In this document: positions 32,066-42,719 of the stretch, in pieces | Layout of the letters: each line of letters begins with the position of its first letter | Position numbering within the stretch: the stretch's first letter is position 1 | Source: Dactylosporangium siamense | Lineage (GTDB): Bacteria > Actinomycetota > Actinomycetes > Mycobacteriales > Micromonosporaceae | Assembly (NCBI RefSeq): GCF_016862795.1 | Contig: NZ_BONQ01000084.1 | Span: forward strand, 1-64,000 | Length of the DNA: 64,000 bases | Direction: 5' to 3' | Notes under the pieces: generated by a model | Seen by the model: the letters and a program-made list of their open reading frames with translations, nothing else | The model's database searches: none | Told to the model about the DNA's origin: nothing | Made by a program: the position numbers and the translations under genes

Positions 32066-33853
32066 GTGGATCGGACGTTCCAGGTGGACCTGCGCGGGGT
32101 TGTGGACCTGCTCAGTCACCACCTCTATGCGAGCCCTCGCGTCTACGTGCGTGAGCTGCTCCAGAATGCCGTCGACGCGATCACCGCGCGGCGCGTTTCG
32201 GCCGTCGCCGGGGATCCACCCGTGCCGGCCCGGGTGCGCATCGAGCCGCCGGATGTGACCGGCGACGGCACCCTGCGCGTGTCCGACACCGGCATCGGGC
32301 TGACCGAGGAGCAGGTCCACCAGTTCCTGGCCACGATCGGGCGCAGCTCCAAACGCGACGACTTCGGCTTCGCCCGCCACGACTTCCTCGGACAGTTCGG
32401 CATCGGCCTGCTCTCCTGCTTCCTGGTCGCCGACGAGATCCGGGTCCTGACCAGGGCCGAAAACAGCCCGACGGTGCTGTGGCGCGGCTTCGCCGACGGT
32501 CGCTACAGCGTCGCGCTCGCCGGCGAGGACCGCCTGCAGGTCGGCACGACCGTGACGCTGGTGCCCCGCCGCGACGCCGACCAGTGGCTGGTGCGGCGGA
32601 CCGTGGTCGAGCTCGCCACGCTCTATGGCTCGCTGCTCCCGGTGGCGGTCGAGGTCGGCGACGTCGAGGTCACCGGCGACGGGCTGCCGTGGCGCCTCGG
32701 CGGCGACGAGCGCCGGCAGCGGCTGGTCGCACACTGCCAGGACGTCTTCGGGTTCACCCCGTTCGACATCGTGGAGCTGGCCGTGCCGGAGGCCGGGCTG
32801 ACCGGGGTGGCGTTCGTGCTGCCCACGCCGGCCAACCCCGCGGCGCGGGCCGGACACCGGGTCTATCTGAAGCGGATGCTGCTCGCCGAGGGCGCCGAAG
32901 GTGTCCTGCCCGAGTGGGCGTTCTTCGCCCGCTGTGTCTTCGACGCCGGTGAGCTGCGCCCGACCGCGAGCCGCGAGGCGTTGTATGAGGACCAGCTGCT
33001 CGAGTCGACCCGCGAGGCGCTCGGCGACCAGCTGCGTGGCTGGCTGGTCCGGCTCGCCACCCGCGACCCGCGGCGGCTCACGGAGTTCCTGGAGATCCAT
33101 CACCTCGGGGTCAAGGCGCTCGCGGTCCACGACGACGAGATGCTGCGCCTGGTCGAGCGCTGGTGGCCGATGGAGACCAACACCGGCCGGATGACCCTCG
33201 CCGACTTCCGGGCCCAGCACGGCCTGGTGCGATACACGGTCCAGGTCGACGAGTTCCGCCAGATCGGCGCGGTCGCCGCAGCGCAGGGGATGCCGGTGGT
33301 CAACGCCGGCTATGTCTATGACGCTCAGCTCATCGAGCGGCTGCCGCTCATCGAGCCGGGCGCACTCATCGAGCGGGTCGAGCCCAGCGACCTGACCACC
33401 CACTTCGACGCGCTGGAGCCGGGGCTGGAGCTGGCCAGGCGGCCGTTCGTGGCCAGGGCGCAGCGGGCCATGGACCGGCTCGGCTGCGAGGTGGTCCTGC
33501 GCTCGTTCGACCCGGCCGGCATGCCGGCGATGTATCTGGTCAACCGCTCGGCGGCGTTCGCCGCGGAGCTGCGGGCGACCCGGGAACGGGTCGACGAGGT
33601 GTGGGCCGACGTCCTCGACGCGCTCGCCCGCACCGACGAGGAGGACCGGCCCCAGCTGGTGCTCAACCATCGCAACCCGCTGGTCCGGCGGGTCAGCGAG
33701 CTGGCGGACGAGGACCTGGTGCGGCTCGCCGTGGAAGGGTTGTATGGCCAGGCGCTGCTGCTCGGCCACCATCCGCTGCGACCGGCCGACGCGGCCCTGC
33801 TCAACAGTTCATTCCTGGGTCTGCTCAACAAGGCGGTCGCGCATGAAGACTGA
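32066..33853 (+). CDS. HSP90 (HtpG-like) ATPase
   Basis: This 595-residue protein has the GHKL ATPase domain of HSP90: YVRELLQNAVDAI with catalytic Glu30 and Asn34, VSDTGIGLT with Asp74, and GQFGIGLLSCFLVAD (109-123). The middle domain includes the Arg-bearing TASREALYED. A C-terminal dimerisation-like region contains LVLNHRNPLVRRV and GLYGQALLLGHH. It is shorter and divergent from housekeeping HtpG. The start is GTG 32066. The last 11 nt overlap the TPR gene start, so the two proteins are made together. It is likely a specialised chaperone; the client is unknown. Confidence 0.9.
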   Translation: MDRTFQVDLRGVVDLLSHHLYASPRVYVRELLQNAVDAITARRVSAVAGDPPVPARVRIEPPDVTGDGTLRVSDTGIGLTEEQVHQFLATIGRSSKRDDFGFARHDFLGQFGIGLLSCFLVADEIRVLTRAENSPTVLWRGFADGRYSVALAGEDRLQVGTTVTLVPRRDADQWLVRRTVVELATLYGSLLPVAVEVGDVEVTGDGLPWRLGGDERRQRLVAHCQDVFGFTPFDIVELAVPEAGLTGVAFVLPTPANPAARAGHRVYLKRMLLAEGAEGVLPEWAFFARCVFDAGELRPTASREALYEDQLLESTREALGDQLRGWLVRLATRDPRRLTEFLEIHHLGVKALAVHDDEMLRLVERWWPMETNTGRMTLADFRAQHGLVRYTVQVDEFRQIGAVAAAQGMPVVNAGYVYDAQLIERLPLIEPGALIERVEPSDLTTHFDALEPGLELARRPFVARAQRAMDRLGCEVVLRSFDPAGMPAMYLVNRSAAFAAELRATRERVDEVWADVLDALARTDEEDRPQLVLNHRNPLVRRVSELADEDLVRLAVEGLYGQALLLGHHPLRPADAALLNSSFLGLLNKAVAHED

Positions 33854-36653
33854 AGACGAGCTGTGGGGTCTGCTGCGGGAGGCCGACCACATGCCCTATG
33901 GCAGCGGGCAGATCGCGCTGGTCGAGCAGATCGTGCAGCACGCCGACGCGGGCGGCTTCGACGAGCTGCGCTTCGCGGCCAGGATGCAGGCCACCACGGC
34001 ATACGTGCACGGCGGGGAGACCGCGAAGTCGTTCGTGACGTTCTCGTGGTGCCGCGCGGAATATGACGCGCACCCGGATCGCTTCGACCGGCACGCCGAG
34101 AGCCTGCTGCTGTGGCAGTTCAAATACATGGTGTCGGGGCTGCTGAAGTTTCCCGAGGTGCCGCTCGGGCGCACCCGTGACGTCCTCGACGACATGGAGC
34201 GCCGCTTCCGGGCCGGCGGGCACAGTCTGCAGGCCGTCCATTCGTATCGGCATGCCGTGGCCGCGCACGTCGGCGACCCGGCCGCCGACGAGTGGTATGA
34301 GAAGTGGTGCGCGACGCCCCGCGACGAAAACTCCGACTGCGTCGGCTGCGACCCGACCTCGAAGGTGTATCACCTGGTGTCGGCCGGCGACGACGAGGCG
34401 GCGGTCGCGCTCGCCCAGCCGGTGCTCGCCGGCCAGCTCACCTGCGCCGAGCAGCCCCAGTCGATCCTGACGTCGTTGCTCCTGCCGTATCTGCGCACCG
34501 GCCGGCTCAGCGAGGCCGCCGACGCGCACCGCCGGGCCTATCGCAGCCTCCGTGGCAACCTGGCCGACCTGCAGCGCATCGGCGAGCACGTGGTGTTCTG
34601 CGCACGGACCGGCAACGAGACCCGCGGCCTGGAGATCGTCGAGCGGCACCTGAGCTGGCTGGACAAGGCGCCGCACCCGCAGGCCGACATGTGGTTCTCC
34701 GCCGCGGCGGCGCTGCTGCTCAGCCGCCTGGACGCCGACGTGCTGGTCGGCGACGTGCCGGCGCCCGAGCTCGCCGAGCGGCTCGCCACCCGGGCCCGGG
34801 CCCTGTCGGCACGGTTCGACGCGCGCAACGGCACCGCCAACATCGGCACGCTCATCGAGTCCCGGCTGCACGCGCAGCCGATAGTGGAGCACCTGCCGCT
34901 CAGCGCCGTCGCCCGCACGCTGCGGGCCGGCGCCACCGTCCCGGCGGCCGCCCGGGCCACGGCGGGCCCGTTGCCGAGCGACCCGGCCGGCCTGCTCGAC
35001 CGTGCGGAGGAGCTGTTCGACGAATATCGCTTCACCGAGGCCCGCGCCGCGTGGCAGCGCTTCGACGAGTTGCACCCGGAGCCGCCGTTTGCGCTCGCGG
35101 TCCGGCGGGTCGAGGGGCGCGGCCGGATGGCCGGCGTCGACCAGGCGCCGGAGCAGGCCGAGGCCGCGTTCCGGGAGGCCGCCGCCGGCTACCGCACGCT
35201 CGGCGACGAGCTGGCCGCGCTGGTCGCCGAGGCCCGCGCGATCCTCGCCCCGGACGCGGAGGAGCGGCAGGAGGAGGTCCTGGCCGAGCTGACCACGGTC
35301 ACCGAGCGGATCGTGGCGATCGGTGACGCCGACGCCCGTGCGGAGGCGCGGCTGCGGCTGGAGTATCCGCTGCTGGCGCTCGACCGGCTCGACGACGCGC
35401 TCGCCGCGGTCGATCGGGCGATCGCCGAGGAGCCGCCCCGACCGGCGCTGCGGGCGGAGCTGGCCGGTCGGCGCGCCCGGTGCCTGCTGGTGCTGGAGCG
35501 TTTCGAGGCGGCGGCGGCCGCCGCCGCCGACTGCCGGGAGCAGTATGGCCGGCTCGGTGACCCGCCGCCGGTCGCGCTCGCGGCGCTGATCCACGGTCAC
35601 GCCCTGGCCAACCTCGAGCAGTTCGACGCGGCCGTGAAGGCGTTCGACGCGGCGCTCGGTGCCGCCGTCGAGCGCGACCCGCGGCTGTCGGCGCTGGTCG
35701 GCCGGGCCAGGGCCAGGCTTGCCGGTGGCCAGCCGGCCGAGGCCGTCGACGACCTCGTCGAGGCGATCGCCGACCACGTCGCGCACGGCGAGGACGCCCC
35801 CGCCGCGATCCTGCGGTTCGACCTGGCCAGCGCCTATGACCAGGCGGGTCAGCCGCTCGACGCGGCCGAGGCGGCGGAGAGCGCGATCGATGTGCTCGAC
35901 CGGATCGGCGCGCAGGACCACGCCGACCAGACCCGGTATCTGCTGTCCCGGATCTACCGGGAGCTCGACGAGCCCGACCAGGCCCTTGCACTGCTGGAGA
36001 CCCTCGCCGACAACCTGGACGGCTTCGACAACCTGCAGTCCCGGGGCAGGATGCTGCAGGAGGCGGCGCAGCTGCTCTACCGGGTCGACCGCGACGCACA
36101 GGCGGCCGGGAAGTTCGCCGCGGCGGCGGCGGCGTTCAAGGCGGCCGGGTCCAAGGCGTCGGGGGCAGTCCAGGCCGAGCTGTATTGCCGGCGGATGCGG
36201 GCGCTCGCGCTGCGCTGGGCCGGCAGCGTCGAGGACTCGCTCGCCGCGCTCGCCGAGGCCGACGCCCTCGTGGCGGAGCTGGCACTCACGGTCGAGGCGT
36301 CCGAGGCGTGGCTGGTGTGGCACCGTGCGATGCTCGACTGCGACGGGGCCCGCGTGCACCTCGGTGCCGGCCAGGGCGACGAGGCCCTGGTCAGGATCCA
36401 GGGGGCGGCCCGCGCGCTGCGCGGTATCGGTGCGTTCGGTGACGCCCTGGAGGCCGACCTGCTGCACGCCGAGCTGCTCATGCGCTCCGGTGAGCCGGCG
36501 ACCGCGGAGCCGTTGCTGCGCTCGGTGCTCGGCACGGCACCCGCGGGCTCGCAGGCGGGACAGAACGCGGCCTGGATGCTGGCCGAGGCACTGGAGGCCC
36601 TGGACCGCCCGGCCGAGGCCGCCGAGATCCGACAACTCCACCTCGAGCAGTGA
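33843..36653 (+). CDS. large TPR-repeat protein, partner of the HSP90-like ATPase
   Basis: This 936-residue soluble protein is rich in Ala, Asp and Glu. The N-terminal 0-330 region has a Cys cluster (Cys156, CVGC at 166-169, Cys201) that could bind metal, and helical repeats. From about 380 onwards there are at least eight TPR-like hairpins (LLDRAEELFDEYRFTEARAAWQRF, ALANLEQFDAAVKAFDAALG, DLASAYDQAGQPLDAAEAAESAID, YLLSRIYRELDEPDQALALLETLA). The ATG lies in the HSP90 gene's end (ATGAAGACTGA). TPR proteins are classic HSP90 co-chaperones in eukaryotes; here the partnership is inferred from coupling. It is not recognised as a named family. Confidence 0.85.
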   Translation: MKTEDELWGLLREADHMPYGSGQIALVEQIVQHADAGGFDELRFAARMQATTAYVHGGETAKSFVTFSWCRAEYDAHPDRFDRHAESLLLWQFKYMVSGLLKFPEVPLGRTRDVLDDMERRFRAGGHSLQAVHSYRHAVAAHVGDPAADEWYEKWCATPRDENSDCVGCDPTSKVYHLVSAGDDEAAVALAQPVLAGQLTCAEQPQSILTSLLLPYLRTGRLSEAADAHRRAYRSLRGNLADLQRIGEHVVFCARTGNETRGLEIVERHLSWLDKAPHPQADMWFSAAAALLLSRLDADVLVGDVPAPELAERLATRARALSARFDARNGTANIGTLIESRLHAQPIVEHLPLSAVARTLRAGATVPAAARATAGPLPSDPAGLLDRAEELFDEYRFTEARAAWQRFDELHPEPPFALAVRRVEGRGRMAGVDQAPEQAEAAFREAAAGYRTLGDELAALVAEARAILAPDAEERQEEVLAELTTVTERIVAIGDADARAEARLRLEYPLLALDRLDDALAAVDRAIAEEPPRPALRAELAGRRARCLLVLERFEAAAAAAADCREQYGRLGDPPPVALAALIHGHALANLEQFDAAVKAFDAALGAAVERDPRLSALVGRARARLAGGQPAEAVDDLVEAIADHVAHGEDAPAAILRFDLASAYDQAGQPLDAAEAAESAIDVLDRIGAQDHADQTRYLLSRIYRELDEPDQALALLETLADNLDGFDNLQSRGRMLQEAAQLLYRVDRDAQAAGKFAAAAAAFKAAGSKASGAVQAELYCRRMRALALRWAGSVEDSLAALAEADALVAELALTVEASEAWLVWHRAMLDCDGARVHLGAGQGDEALVRIQGAARALRGIGAFGDALEADLLHAELLMRSGEPATAEPLLRSVLGTAPAGSQAGQNAAWMLAEALEALDRPAEAAEIRQLHLEQ

Positions 36654-41036: not shown

Positions 41037-42719
41037 ATGAAGACGTGGGTTCGTAAGTCGCTCAACGTGGGCGTGCTTTCCGCGGGCTTCCTGCTCATCT
41101 CGGGCGGGGCCGCGCACGCCGACTGGACGACTGGCTACAACGCCGGCCTGCTCAACGGCAATCAGTTCGACACCACCCTCCAGCTGCCGGTCAACGTCTG
41201 TGGCAACTCGATCGCGGTGCTCGGCTTCGCCGACGCGTCCTGCGGTGGCGGCGCCGCGGCGATCGACACCGAGAGCGCGACGACCGAGGACTGGACCACC
41301 GGGTACAACGCCGGTGTCGCCAACGGCAACCAGTTCGACACCACCATCCAGGCCCCGATCAACGTCAGCGGCAACGCCGTCAGCGTCCTGGGCTTCTCGC
41401 AGGCGTCCAGCCAGGGCGGCGCGTACGCCGTCAAGGGCGGCATGGCGTCGGACAACGGCCGGGGCAACGGGCACGGCCACGGCCGCGGTCACGGGCACGG
41501 CGGCGGCGGCAACGGTGGCGGCAACGGCAACAACAACGGCGGCTACAACGCCAACAACAACGGTGGCTACGCCGCCGACGCTGACGCCGACGGCGACTAC
41601 ACCGAGAGCGCCGGCAACCGCACCGAGGACTGGACCTCGGGCTACAACGCGGGCCTGCTCAACGGCAACCAGTTCGACACCACGCTGCAGCTGCCGGTCA
41701 ACCTGAGCGGCAACGCGATCAGCCTGTTCGGCTTCTCCAGCGCCCAGAGCGCCGGCGGTGCCTGGGCGGTCAAGGGTGAGAGCGCCTCCACCGAGAGCGC
41801 GAACACCACCGAGGACTGGACCACCGGCTACAACGCGGGCCTGCTCAACGGCAACCAGTTCGACACCACCATCCAGGCCCCGATCAACGTGTGCGGCAAC
41901 GCGATCGCGGTGCTCGGCTTCTCCAGCGCCTCCTGCGGCGGCGGCGCGGTTGCCGTCGACGGCGACGGCTGGGGCGGCGGCAACGGCAACGGCGGCGGGC
42001 ACGGCCACGGTCACCACGGCAACGGCGGCGGCAACGGCGACTGGGACGACGACTGGGACGACAACGGCAACGGCAACGGTGGCAACAACGGCGGCTACGG
42101 TGACGACGACGCCGACACCAACGGTGGCTACGGTGACGACAACGCCGACACCAACGGTGGCTACGGCAACAGCAACCACCACGCCAACCCGAGCGCGTAC
42201 GGCAACGCCGCGGGCAACGCCAGCAACATGAGCTCGAACGGCGCCTCGGCGTCGCACGGCAAGGCCAAGCCCAAGGCCAAGAAGGTCGCCAGCGAGCACG
42301 GCCGCGGCAACGGCCACGGCACCGGCACCGCGAACGACGACGGCTACGGCGGCCAGAACAACGGCGGCTACGACAACGGCAACGCCGACGACAACGGTGA
42401 CGACGACGGCTACGGCGGCAACGGCAACGGCGGGGGCAACGGCGGGGGCAACGGCCACCACGGCAACGGCCACCACGGCCACGGCAACGGCAACGGTCAC
42501 AACAACGGCGGCTGGGGCAACGGCAACGGCGGCGGCGGCGCCACCGCGGTCAAGAACTCCTGCAGCGACTGGACCACGGGTTACAACGCGGGCCTGCTGA
42601 ACGGCAACCAGTTCGACACCACGCTCCAGGTGCCGATCAACATCAGCGGCAACGCGATCAGCCTGTTCGGCTTCTCGCAGGCGTCCAGCCAGGGCGGCGC
42701 GGTCGCGTACTCCTGCTGA
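41037..42719 (+). CDS. secreted protein with five chaplin-like repeats
   Basis: This 560-residue secreted protein is cleaved after AHA28. It contains five repeats of about 49 residues (29-75, 85-133, 198-247, 260-308, 511-560), each starting DWT(T/S)GYNAG(L/V)xNGNQFDTT and ending in GN(A/S)(I/V)xxxGF. Repeats 1 and 4 carry a Cys pair (Cys55/69, Cys286/300); repeats 2, 3 and 5 have Ser there. Between repeats lie Gly/Asn/His/Asp-rich linkers (about 135-190, 310-505). The PVNVCGN-type core matches chaplins, amyloid-forming hydrophobic surface proteins of aerial hyphae. No sorting signal is seen at the C-terminus, which ends AYSC. Confidence 0.85.
   Translation: MKTWVRKSLNVGVLSAGFLLISGGAAHADWTTGYNAGLLNGNQFDTTLQLPVNVCGNSIAVLGFADASCGGGAAAIDTESATTEDWTTGYNAGVANGNQFDTTIQAPINVSGNAVSVLGFSQASSQGGAYAVKGGMASDNGRGNGHGHGRGHGHGGGGNGGGNGNNNGGYNANNNGGYAADADADGDYTESAGNRTEDWTSGYNAGLLNGNQFDTTLQLPVNLSGNAISLFGFSSAQSAGGAWAVKGESASTESANTTEDWTTGYNAGLLNGNQFDTTIQAPINVCGNAIAVLGFSSASCGGGAVAVDGDGWGGGNGNGGGHGHGHHGNGGGNGDWDDDWDDNGNGNGGNNGGYGDDDADTNGGYGDDNADTNGGYGNSNHHANPSAYGNAAGNASNMSSNGASASHGKAKPKAKKVASEHGRGNGHGTGTANDDGYGGQNNGGYDNGNADDNGDDDGYGGNGNGGGNGGGNGHHGNGHHGHGNGNGHNNGGWGNGNGGGGATAVKNSCSDWTTGYNAGLLNGNQFDTTLQVPINISGNAISLFGFSQASSQGGAVAYSC

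Follow-up and report, generated by a model that had tools for sequence, protein, structure and literature searches.

Results

An HSP90-family gene overlaps the gene for a predicted solenoid protein

The DNA analyzed here, a 64-kb stretch of the Dactylosporangium siamense genome (hereafter the window), carries a gene for an HSP90-family ATPase whose end overlaps the start of a second, larger gene (Table 1). An original prediction, made from this sequence, had described the pair as an HSP90-like ATPase coupled to a large TPR protein, and the coordinates, reading frames and 11-nt overlap (33843-33853) are all as it described them. The roles attached in Table 1 to three residues of the ATPase, namely catalysis for E30 and R303 and nucleotide binding for D74, are predictions that follow the roles assigned to these residues in the HSP90 literature.

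Table 1. Features of the gene pair, in coordinates of the window.
Feature	Position	Strand	Evidence
HSP90-family ATPase, NF010683/PRK14083 type, 595 aa, GTG start	32066..33853	+	NCBIfam NF010683, 818.4 bits
Codon of E30, predicted ATPase glutamate	32153..32155	+	E in 34/34 relatives and 21/21 HtpG rows
Codon of D74, predicted nucleotide-binding aspartate	32285..32287	+	D in 34/34 relatives and 21/21 HtpG rows
Codon of R303, predicted middle-domain catalytic arginine	32972..32974	+	R in 34/34 relatives and 21/21 HtpG rows
Overlap of the HSP90 and solenoid genes, 11 nt	33843..33853	+	Sequence; also in six Dactylosporangium pairs (L061-L066)
Predicted alpha-solenoid/TPR partner protein, 936 aa	33843..36653	+	AlphaFold2 model m6750bc3e110c, pLDDT 87.7; Foldseek matches to TPR-type solenoids
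Conserved core domain of partner, residues 1-354	33843..34904	+	24-row alignment A4; core-only partners in Listeria and Paenibacillus
C166-x2-C169 motif	34338..34349	+	Invariant in A4; 28/28 paired partners; absent in the G624 partner (L116)
C201, third conserved cysteine	34443..34445	+	Invariant in A4; 28/28 paired partners
C-terminal predicted TPR superhelix, residues 381-936, lineage-specific extension	34983..36650	+	Regular model helices; weak Pfam TPR matches; missing in Listeria and Paenibacillus partners

The HSP90 protein belongs to a named family that is separate from HtpG

The first protein is a member of NF010683 (PRK14083, 'HSP90 family protein'), scoring 818.4 bits against a cut-off of 455 with its residues 2-593 matched to positions 5-598 of the 604 in the NCBIfam profile. 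Against the HtpG model NF003555 it reaches 150.9 bits, below the cut-off of 371, and the Pfam HSP90 model (PF00183) alone matches it only sub-threshold (15.8 versus 24.4). The HSP90 gene itself is not new, since it belongs to this named family; the NF010683 model covers a single protein and names no specific function for it. The closely related protein of Dactylosporangium aurantiacum is 95% identical.

Residues E30, N34, D37, D74, G76, G78, G109, F111, G112, G114 and R303 are all present. Every ATPase position tested is identical in the 34 aligned relatives and also kept in all 21 HtpG rows, in agreement with the earlier statement that the GHKL ATPase residues are retained. A profile built from nine diverse relatives (A5) finds the solved HtpG and TRAP1 structures over nearly their whole length; for example, its positions 4-582 align with residues 5-612 of E. 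coli HtpG (2iop; E 1.4e-75). Therefore the N, middle and C-terminal regions are all present, and with the GHKL residues and the middle-domain arginine the window protein has the architecture of the HSP90 superfamily. Its structure model was poor (pLDDT 52.8) and was left unused as evidence.

The 12.7-Mb source genome also encodes a separate canonical HtpG of 634 aa on another contig (C83; 776.6 bits to NF003555). The window gene is therefore a second HSP90 and not a shortened housekeeping copy, and its 595-aa product is, as had been noticed, shorter than the organism's own HtpG. A C-terminal EEVD or near match occurs in none of the 34 relatives, including Pseudanabaena, whose row was trimmed at 650 in this set and whose real C-terminus also has no EEVD; the advice not to read the HED tail of the window protein as an EEVD-like signal was sound, and the MEEVD tail is absent.

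In a maximum-likelihood tree of 55 rows, a single branch with 100/100 support divides 34 HSP90s of the window kind from 21 HtpGs, a split recovered in 100% of 200 bootstrap trees. Long-branch warnings were raised for rows that include Pseudanabaena, G419, Listeria, Paenibacillus and a fecal contig, and the 34-row side includes one HSP90 without a partner (L067) and one with a different partner (L115). A Methylobacterium match was rejected as a window-kind HSP90, having been judged an HtpG by eye, and on that assignment it is placed with the HtpGs in the tree. With hand-chosen starts, the window kind spans 581-636 aa (33 rows, the Pseudanabaena fusion omitted) versus 610-689 aa for HtpG. Of ten genomes checked for HSP90 types, four yielded only a window-kind HSP90.

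The partner is predicted to be a helical solenoid with a conserved core

No NCBIfam model matches the window partner, and none matches the proteins P0003, P0004, P0007 and P0012 either. All Pfam TPR matches of the 936-aa protein fall below their cut-offs, the best being TPR_12 (E 8e-6; 26.4 bits versus 30.1). Its AlphaFold2 model is an all-helical solenoid with a mean pLDDT of 87.7, dropping below 50 only at residues 355-374 and weaker (60-68) in the ten-residue blocks around the cysteines. The top Foldseek matches of this model are IFT-A and Ski-complex subunits, LGN and OGT, with low whole-query TM-scores. At the level of fold class only, the model thereby identifies the partner as a probable helix-pair superhelix of the TPR type. 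The earlier TPR assignment accordingly stands on the modeled solenoid and not on Pfam, where it stays sub-threshold. Similarly, the large TPR partner that had been proposed is a real gene, but its conserved core is confined to the first ~350 residues and the large TPR part lies outside.

Within this core, alignment A4 (24 rows, first ~350 residues) has invariant positions that include G144, W155, C166, C169, C201, P205, F325, D326, R328 and N329, although the rows were cut using the FDxRN motif, so that its invariance there is partly by choice. Among the 28 paired partners the motif (F325-D-x-R-N329) is found in 25 and is missing in L054, L055 and L135. Three of the four cysteines singled out originally (C166, C169 and C201) are invariant in the 24 rows and present in 28/28 paired partners, and the fourth, C156, is not conserved. 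The same three also occur, as judged by pattern or by eye, in six partners that stand without an HSP90 gene (L058, L059 and L111-L114), and therefore serve the core domain itself. No C-x2-C was found in the partner of genome G624, whose single 732-aa frame contains two divergent matches to the core; the cysteine site is therefore not essential everywhere. Going by the secondary structure of the model, helices 148-157 and 172-180 flank the C-x2-C and helices 184-195 and 204-218 flank C201, which puts all three cysteines along one edge of neighboring helix pairs. The three cysteines may perhaps form a metal-binding site.

The two genes are inherited together

To place the pair in its lineage, 394 genomes of the source organism's class were surveyed, with HSP90 and core-domain searches run on matching genome sets. 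This survey returned 53 NF010683 genes (46 genomes) and 58 genes with a total of 59 matches to the core domain (49 genomes), and a core-domain gene lay directly downstream on the same strand of 52 of the 53 NF010683 genes, because of which chance can be dismissed as the cause of the adjacency. Counted by genome, and ignoring relatedness, co-occurrence gave a Fisher p of 2.5e-53. The sole exception (G419) is a divergent NF010683 member that scores 470 bits, just above the cut-off; 167 nt downstream of it lies the gene for a 240-aa protein that matches TPR models weakly. In the named set a partner is found at 13 of 14 loci, one of them cut by a contig end; L067, from a metagenome-assembled genome, has the HSP90 and no partner within 8 kb. 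In a phylum sample, partly shared with the class sample, pairing was seen in 12/12.

The members of the pair also resemble each other in their histories. A mirror-tree comparison over 28 pairs, relatedness not removed, correlated the two distance matrices at r 0.965, the maximum in 2000 permutations being 0.55, and in the two genomes compared that have two paralogous pairs (G023 and G161) type stays with type. Spacing was measured in 26 other pairs with hand-chosen start codons: six overlap by 11 nt, and in the remaining 20 the spacing extends from 8 nt of overlap to 25 nt of separation; the pair on L135 overlaps by 4 nt. Thus, of the checks proposed with the original prediction, conserved gene order and tight coupling were found in the survey and in the mirror-tree comparison, and conservation of the overlap was found in part, in that spacing is tight throughout (11-nt overlap to 25-nt gap) but the exact 11 nt is confined, among the pairs measured, to Dactylosporangium (the window and L061-L066).

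As a control, the next called gene was inspected at 20 canonical HtpG loci, with rough gene calls, and at none was it a same-strand TPR gene. Nine of these genes are on the other strand and 11 on the same strand; the nine of the latter within 300 nt have no Pfam TPR match (two matched nothing), and the two farther away look by eye like other enzymes. An NF010683 gene is also present in two of the named genomes used as controls, those of Corynebacterium glutamicum and Deinobacterium chartae.

Partners without HSP90 and neighboring genes

As evidence that would count against the pairing, the original prediction had named wide occurrence of the TPR gene without the HSP90-like gene. In the 394 genomes, six of the 58 partner genes stand without HSP90, and the pairing holds. 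One of these orphans (G655; L114) belongs to genus g8, which from its gene content we take to be Streptomyces; its neighbors are a recG-like and a DAK-like gene, an interval in which paired relatives have the HSP90 as well, and its genome keeps another HSP90-partner pair elsewhere. The orphans of G204 and G466 are preceded by and fused to YbjN domains (PF10722; by Pfam in G204, by sequence in G466), and G466 likewise has a pair elsewhere. Those of G171 and G641 are alone, and that of G565 (L112) adjoins a cNMP-binding protein and a cyclase. Similarly, Actinomyces oris has YbjN genes close to a core-domain protein, and the 17 kb inspected there contain no annotated HSP90. In the HSP90 pairs inspected, YbjN domains were not noticed. 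In the available text of PMC5398634, the YbjN fold is said to resemble type III secretion chaperones. The pair is thus asymmetric: the HSP90 hardly occurs without its partner, and the partner can live without the HSP90.

In the window, lipoprotein and ADP-ribosylglycohydrolase genes lie just upstream of the pair. The lipoprotein gene was rejected as a component, being directly upstream on the same strand in just three of 14 named Micromonosporaceae loci. A downstream block of TetR, biotin-carboxylase-like and HMG-CoA-lyase-like genes (functions judged from sequence, TetR by Pfam) recurs in 10-11 of the 14 Micromonosporaceae loci; it is unseen in g8 loci and is therefore read as local synteny and not as part of the module. 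Among five g8 loci, neighbors look, by sequence, like housekeeping genes (recG, coaD, thiD and thiL).

Related pairs occur beyond Actinobacteria

Seven PLSDB records have relatives that span 80% or more of the query: three from Streptomyces, two from Listeria and one each from Paenibacillus and Pseudanabaena. In Paenibacillus a core-only partner of 353 aa overlaps the HSP90 gene by 4 nt, and in Listeria two tandem core-only partners (324 and 320 aa) are followed by a SUKH/SMI1 protein. From the neighboring fri, we presume the Listeria genes (L075) to be lmo0941 and lmo0942. In the passages available from Listeria papers, lmo0941 or lmo0942 is named singly, in a heat-shock gene list, as a selection signal and as a fragment beside fri. 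Two genes downstream of its HSP90, Pseudanabaena encodes an evident TPR protein; this protein and that of G419 were rejected as homologues of the core, with which they have no detectable relationship.

Among gammaproteobacteria, the HSP90s of Pseudomonas and Salmonella score higher with NF010683 than with HtpG (292.9 versus 192.0 and 285.8 versus 195.4, respectively), under both cut-offs, and their family aligns with that of the window protein (E 1.3e-38). Related gammaproteobacterial HSP90s are each followed by a TPR-like protein, at 36 nt in Pseudomonas, 24 in Xanthomonas, 2 in Salmonella and 1 in E. coli. These partners have 764-774 aa and 42-63% identity to the Pseudomonas one; they are TPR proteins by annotation in Xanthomonas, with weak TPR matches in Pseudomonas, Xanthomonas and Salmonella. 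We presume the Pseudomonas partner (L080) to be PA1069, from the locus order and the sentence on its operon in PMC4053335. Among 5426 E. coli genomes, 149 have a homologous pair, with every match spanning at least 80% of the two-gene query; in the one genome inspected, the pair lies between fdhD and yiiG. In an hhalign comparison (62%, E 7e-5), the gammaproteobacterial C-x2-C falls on that of the core. HMMER gave no core match of the Pseudomonas partner at E up to 10, and the best alignment of a full-length actinobacterial profile with the gammaproteobacterial partner lies elsewhere (35.5%). On these comparisons, the gammaproteobacterial partners are candidate, not proven, homologues of the core.

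The phage collection gave 34 matching records, and a fecal contig filed there as phage (L135) carries an HSP90-partner pair. The two records examined (L134 and L135) both look bacterial, on which ground a mobile or phage origin was rejected; a scan of viral_contigs gave nine loci matching at most about 160 of the 595 residues. While the non-actinobacterial cases are a handful of individual loci and not a survey, they show that the actinobacterial frame originally proposed, within which pairing is indeed conserved, was too narrow, with pairs in Bacillota and TPR-like pairs in gammaproteobacteria. The finding is real, and it is more conserved and wider than was visible from the window alone.

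Regulation of the pair

No CIRCE and no HAIR match was found in the window at up to 3 mismatches. In Pseudomonas aeruginosa PAO1, according to the available part of PMC4957987, PA1069 falls on heat (-1.98) and htpG rises (2.83); an excerpt of PMC7044273 has it falling with inulin and FOS. A classical heat-shock role is disfavored by the lack of a CIRCE or HAIR site and by this fall on heat. According to the accessible text of a 2014 paper (PMC4053335), PA1069 appears to form an operon with Hsp90 and is counted among stress proteins that respond to calcium or to growth as a biofilm by induction. Co-expression of the two genes, which the original prediction had raised, is supported by their overlap and, for Pseudomonas, by that apparent operon.

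Discussion

Relation to known HSP90 systems

The window HSP90 shares its profile coverage and ATPase residues with HtpG, and differs from it in falling under the HtpG cut-off, in its separate clade, in being shorter as a rule and in having a neighbor of a kind that adjoins none of the 20 HtpG loci. In the available text of Chen et al. 2006 (PMC1525184), HtpG is split into groups A, B and C, and a second HTPG is already recorded for S. coelicolor (615 aa) and B. fragilis (588 aa); by length only, these two are possibly of the window kind. The words TPR and operon are absent from that paper. The PA1069 and Hsp90 genes of P. aeruginosa are a gammaproteobacterial form of the pair, but what PMC4053335 offers, in its accessible portion, is a passing remark on one species that gives no TPR, co-chaperone or wider conservation. 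PA1069 is also a row in an interaction table (excerpt of PMC13411936) and in a proteome table (excerpt of PMC5541441). A 2021 paper (PMC7926864) states, in the passage available, that bacterial Hsp90 has no identified cochaperones, and the available part of a 2014 paper (PMC4428384) that none has been identified for E. coli HtpG. No account of the HSP90-solenoid pair as a module was found in the open literature, subscription papers and preprints lying mostly outside the scope of the search. As far as these searches show, the conserved module has had no description beyond the passing remark on Pseudomonas; the earlier suggestion of an undescribed system thus survives for the module, but its HSP90 family was named and the Pseudomonas pair had been remarked on as operonic (PMC4053335, in part).

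An HSP90 with a TPR-type partner, as we infer for the bacterial pair, is reminiscent of the eukaryotic systems (Hop/Sti1, Cpr6 and PP5). In eukaryotic co-chaperones the HSP90-binding part is the TPR clamp. The bacterial core is, by contrast, a ~350-residue predicted solenoid, usually with three cysteines, in a protein that is gene-coupled to its HSP90, and the bacterial HSP90s are without MEEVD in 34/34 cases.

A proposed function and its alternatives

The sequence comparisons and the model show the clade, its residues, the pairing, the core domain with its cysteines and the fold class; beyond these we infer a complex, an ATPase activity, a docking face, a role for the cysteines and the handling of clients. 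The two genes would encode one ATP-dependent chaperone unit. The HSP90-like protein, a full N-M-C HSP90, would by homology hydrolyze ATP as a dimer. The solenoid, made by translational coupling, would bind it co-translationally in a fixed complex as a dedicated co-chaperone or client adaptor, its conserved ~350-residue core docking on the HSP90 without an EEVD tail, and the variable C-terminal TPR superhelix of Actinobacteria may bind clients or further partners. We hold it slightly more probable than not that ATP drives such a chaperone and that the solenoid is its dedicated co-chaperone or client adaptor. The idea of a dedicated co-chaperone module, present in the original prediction, is strengthened by conserved pairing (52/53; r 0.965); the co-chaperone role is a putative one, and the HSP90 family already had a name.

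The main alternative is that the solenoid is a dedicated client, folded or activated by the HSP90 and then acting as a scaffold, sensor or regulator. Tight coupling and co-inheritance would suit a chaperone with a single client just as well; the core of the partner evolves at about twice the rate of the HSP90 (about 1.01-1.14 versus 0.52-0.57 between g8 pair types), and the orphan beside the cNMP-binding protein and cyclase (L112) looks regulatory. However, six orphans persist without HSP90, including the g8 case in which the HSP90 is missing between the recG-like gene and the partner (L114), and it is the HSP90 that almost never stands alone. Such an asymmetry fits an adaptor, and because of its direction we favor the co-chaperone or adaptor and regard a client as rather unlikely. 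Gene order, gene overlap and the apparent operon of Pseudomonas (from the partial text noted above) would also suit two co-regulated members of one pathway that never bind each other, adjacency being no proof of binding. Yet the pairing spans Actinobacteria to Bacillota, and in gammaproteobacteria TPR-like proteins accompany HSP90s of a similar kind, so that we consider this improbable.

A conflict system, anti-phage or otherwise, in which a GHKL protein would act as sensor and a TPR protein as scaffold, is suggested by weak PADLOC matches (best 21.5 bits) that link the ATPase domain to TmtA and to a restriction enzyme, and by the Pseudanabaena homologue, which has a sub-threshold C-terminal TIR match and an adjoining TIR gene. 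The PADLOC matches, however, span only the shared GHKL fold (11.8-21.5 bits), and the partner has a single TPR match there of 10.8 bits; NCBIfam, Pfam and PADLOC found no effector domain in the window pair, and the neighbors look like housekeeping genes, both at the g8 loci and in the E. coli genome with fdhD and yiiG. This possibility appears very slight.

Returning to the dedicated co-chaperone or adaptor, we tentatively put forward, at a little short of even chances, a broader view in which bacteria would have an HSP90 co-chaperone system of their own: an ancient non-HtpG clade, spread over Actinomycetota, Bacillota, Pseudomonadota and Cyanobacteriota, that would be functional only together with an alpha-solenoid partner, gene-coupled to the HSP90 and attached to it without an EEVD tail. 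With the compact two-gene pair occurring in Streptomyces records and in natural isolates of E. coli, the existence of bacterial HSP90 co-chaperones becomes directly testable, and the pair indicates what function to seek in a family that has a name in annotation but no explanation. It suggests that some bacterial HSP90s may come with a built-in helper, like those of plants, animals and fungi; if this is true, the TPR-type partnership would have arisen, or existed, outside eukaryotes.

Core-domain genes and HSP90 genes apart from the pair

Core-domain genes that lack an accompanying HSP90 gene were found in several settings. At L114, recG-like and DAK-like genes flank a retained partner gene, and the HSP90 gene that is present at this position in relatives is missing. 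At L112, two genes come directly after the orphan gene, one encoding a cyclic-nucleotide-binding protein and the other a protein with a cyclase domain. At L058 and L113 a separate YbjN gene precedes a gene encoding the core domain fused to a YbjN domain (the Pfam scan behind this YbjN assignment covered only the L058 proteins). Conversely, no partner was found within 8 kb of the HSP90 gene of a Dactylosporangium MAG, an absence that may reflect gene loss or misassembly. The partner from G624 contains two diverged core-domain matches within its single frame and lacks the C-x2-C motif; the next ORF downstream encodes 1051 aa.

Features at the examined loci
Feature	Location	Remarks
GHKL-ATPase-like protein, window's genome	L003 (G000:C77:206042-206443)	in 1334-aa open frame
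560-aa ORF	window 41037-42719	signal-like start, repeats
G624 partner	L116:6458-8656	one 732-aa frame
Orphan core-domain/TPR protein and two downstream genes	L112:6873-11130	
Core domain-YbjN domain fusion	L058:5532-7609	
Core domain-YbjN domain fusion	L113:6969-9019	
Partner gene without HSP90 gene	L114:6551-9379	flanks recG-like, DAK-like
Pseudanabaena HSP90-like protein	L079:6932-9565	877 aa; C-terminal extension
HSP90 gene, Dactylosporangium MAG	L067:7905-9797	

The phage collection includes bacterial-looking contigs, namely a Salmonella contig with housekeeping genes (L134) and an unverified fecal contig carrying the HSP90-partner pair (L135).

Other ATPase-like and repeat proteins

The window's genome encodes a third GHKL-ATPase-like protein, with 39% identity over about 115 ATPase-domain residues. 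Within the window, the 560-aa ORF contains DWTTGYNAGLLNGNQFDTT-type repeats separated by low-complexity G/N/H/D stretches.

In Pseudanabaena, a TIR gene adjoins the HSP90-like gene on its upstream side, and the C-terminal extension of the HSP90-like protein matches the CAP12/Pycsar TIR domain with a score below the threshold. This protein is a possible HSP90-effector fusion.
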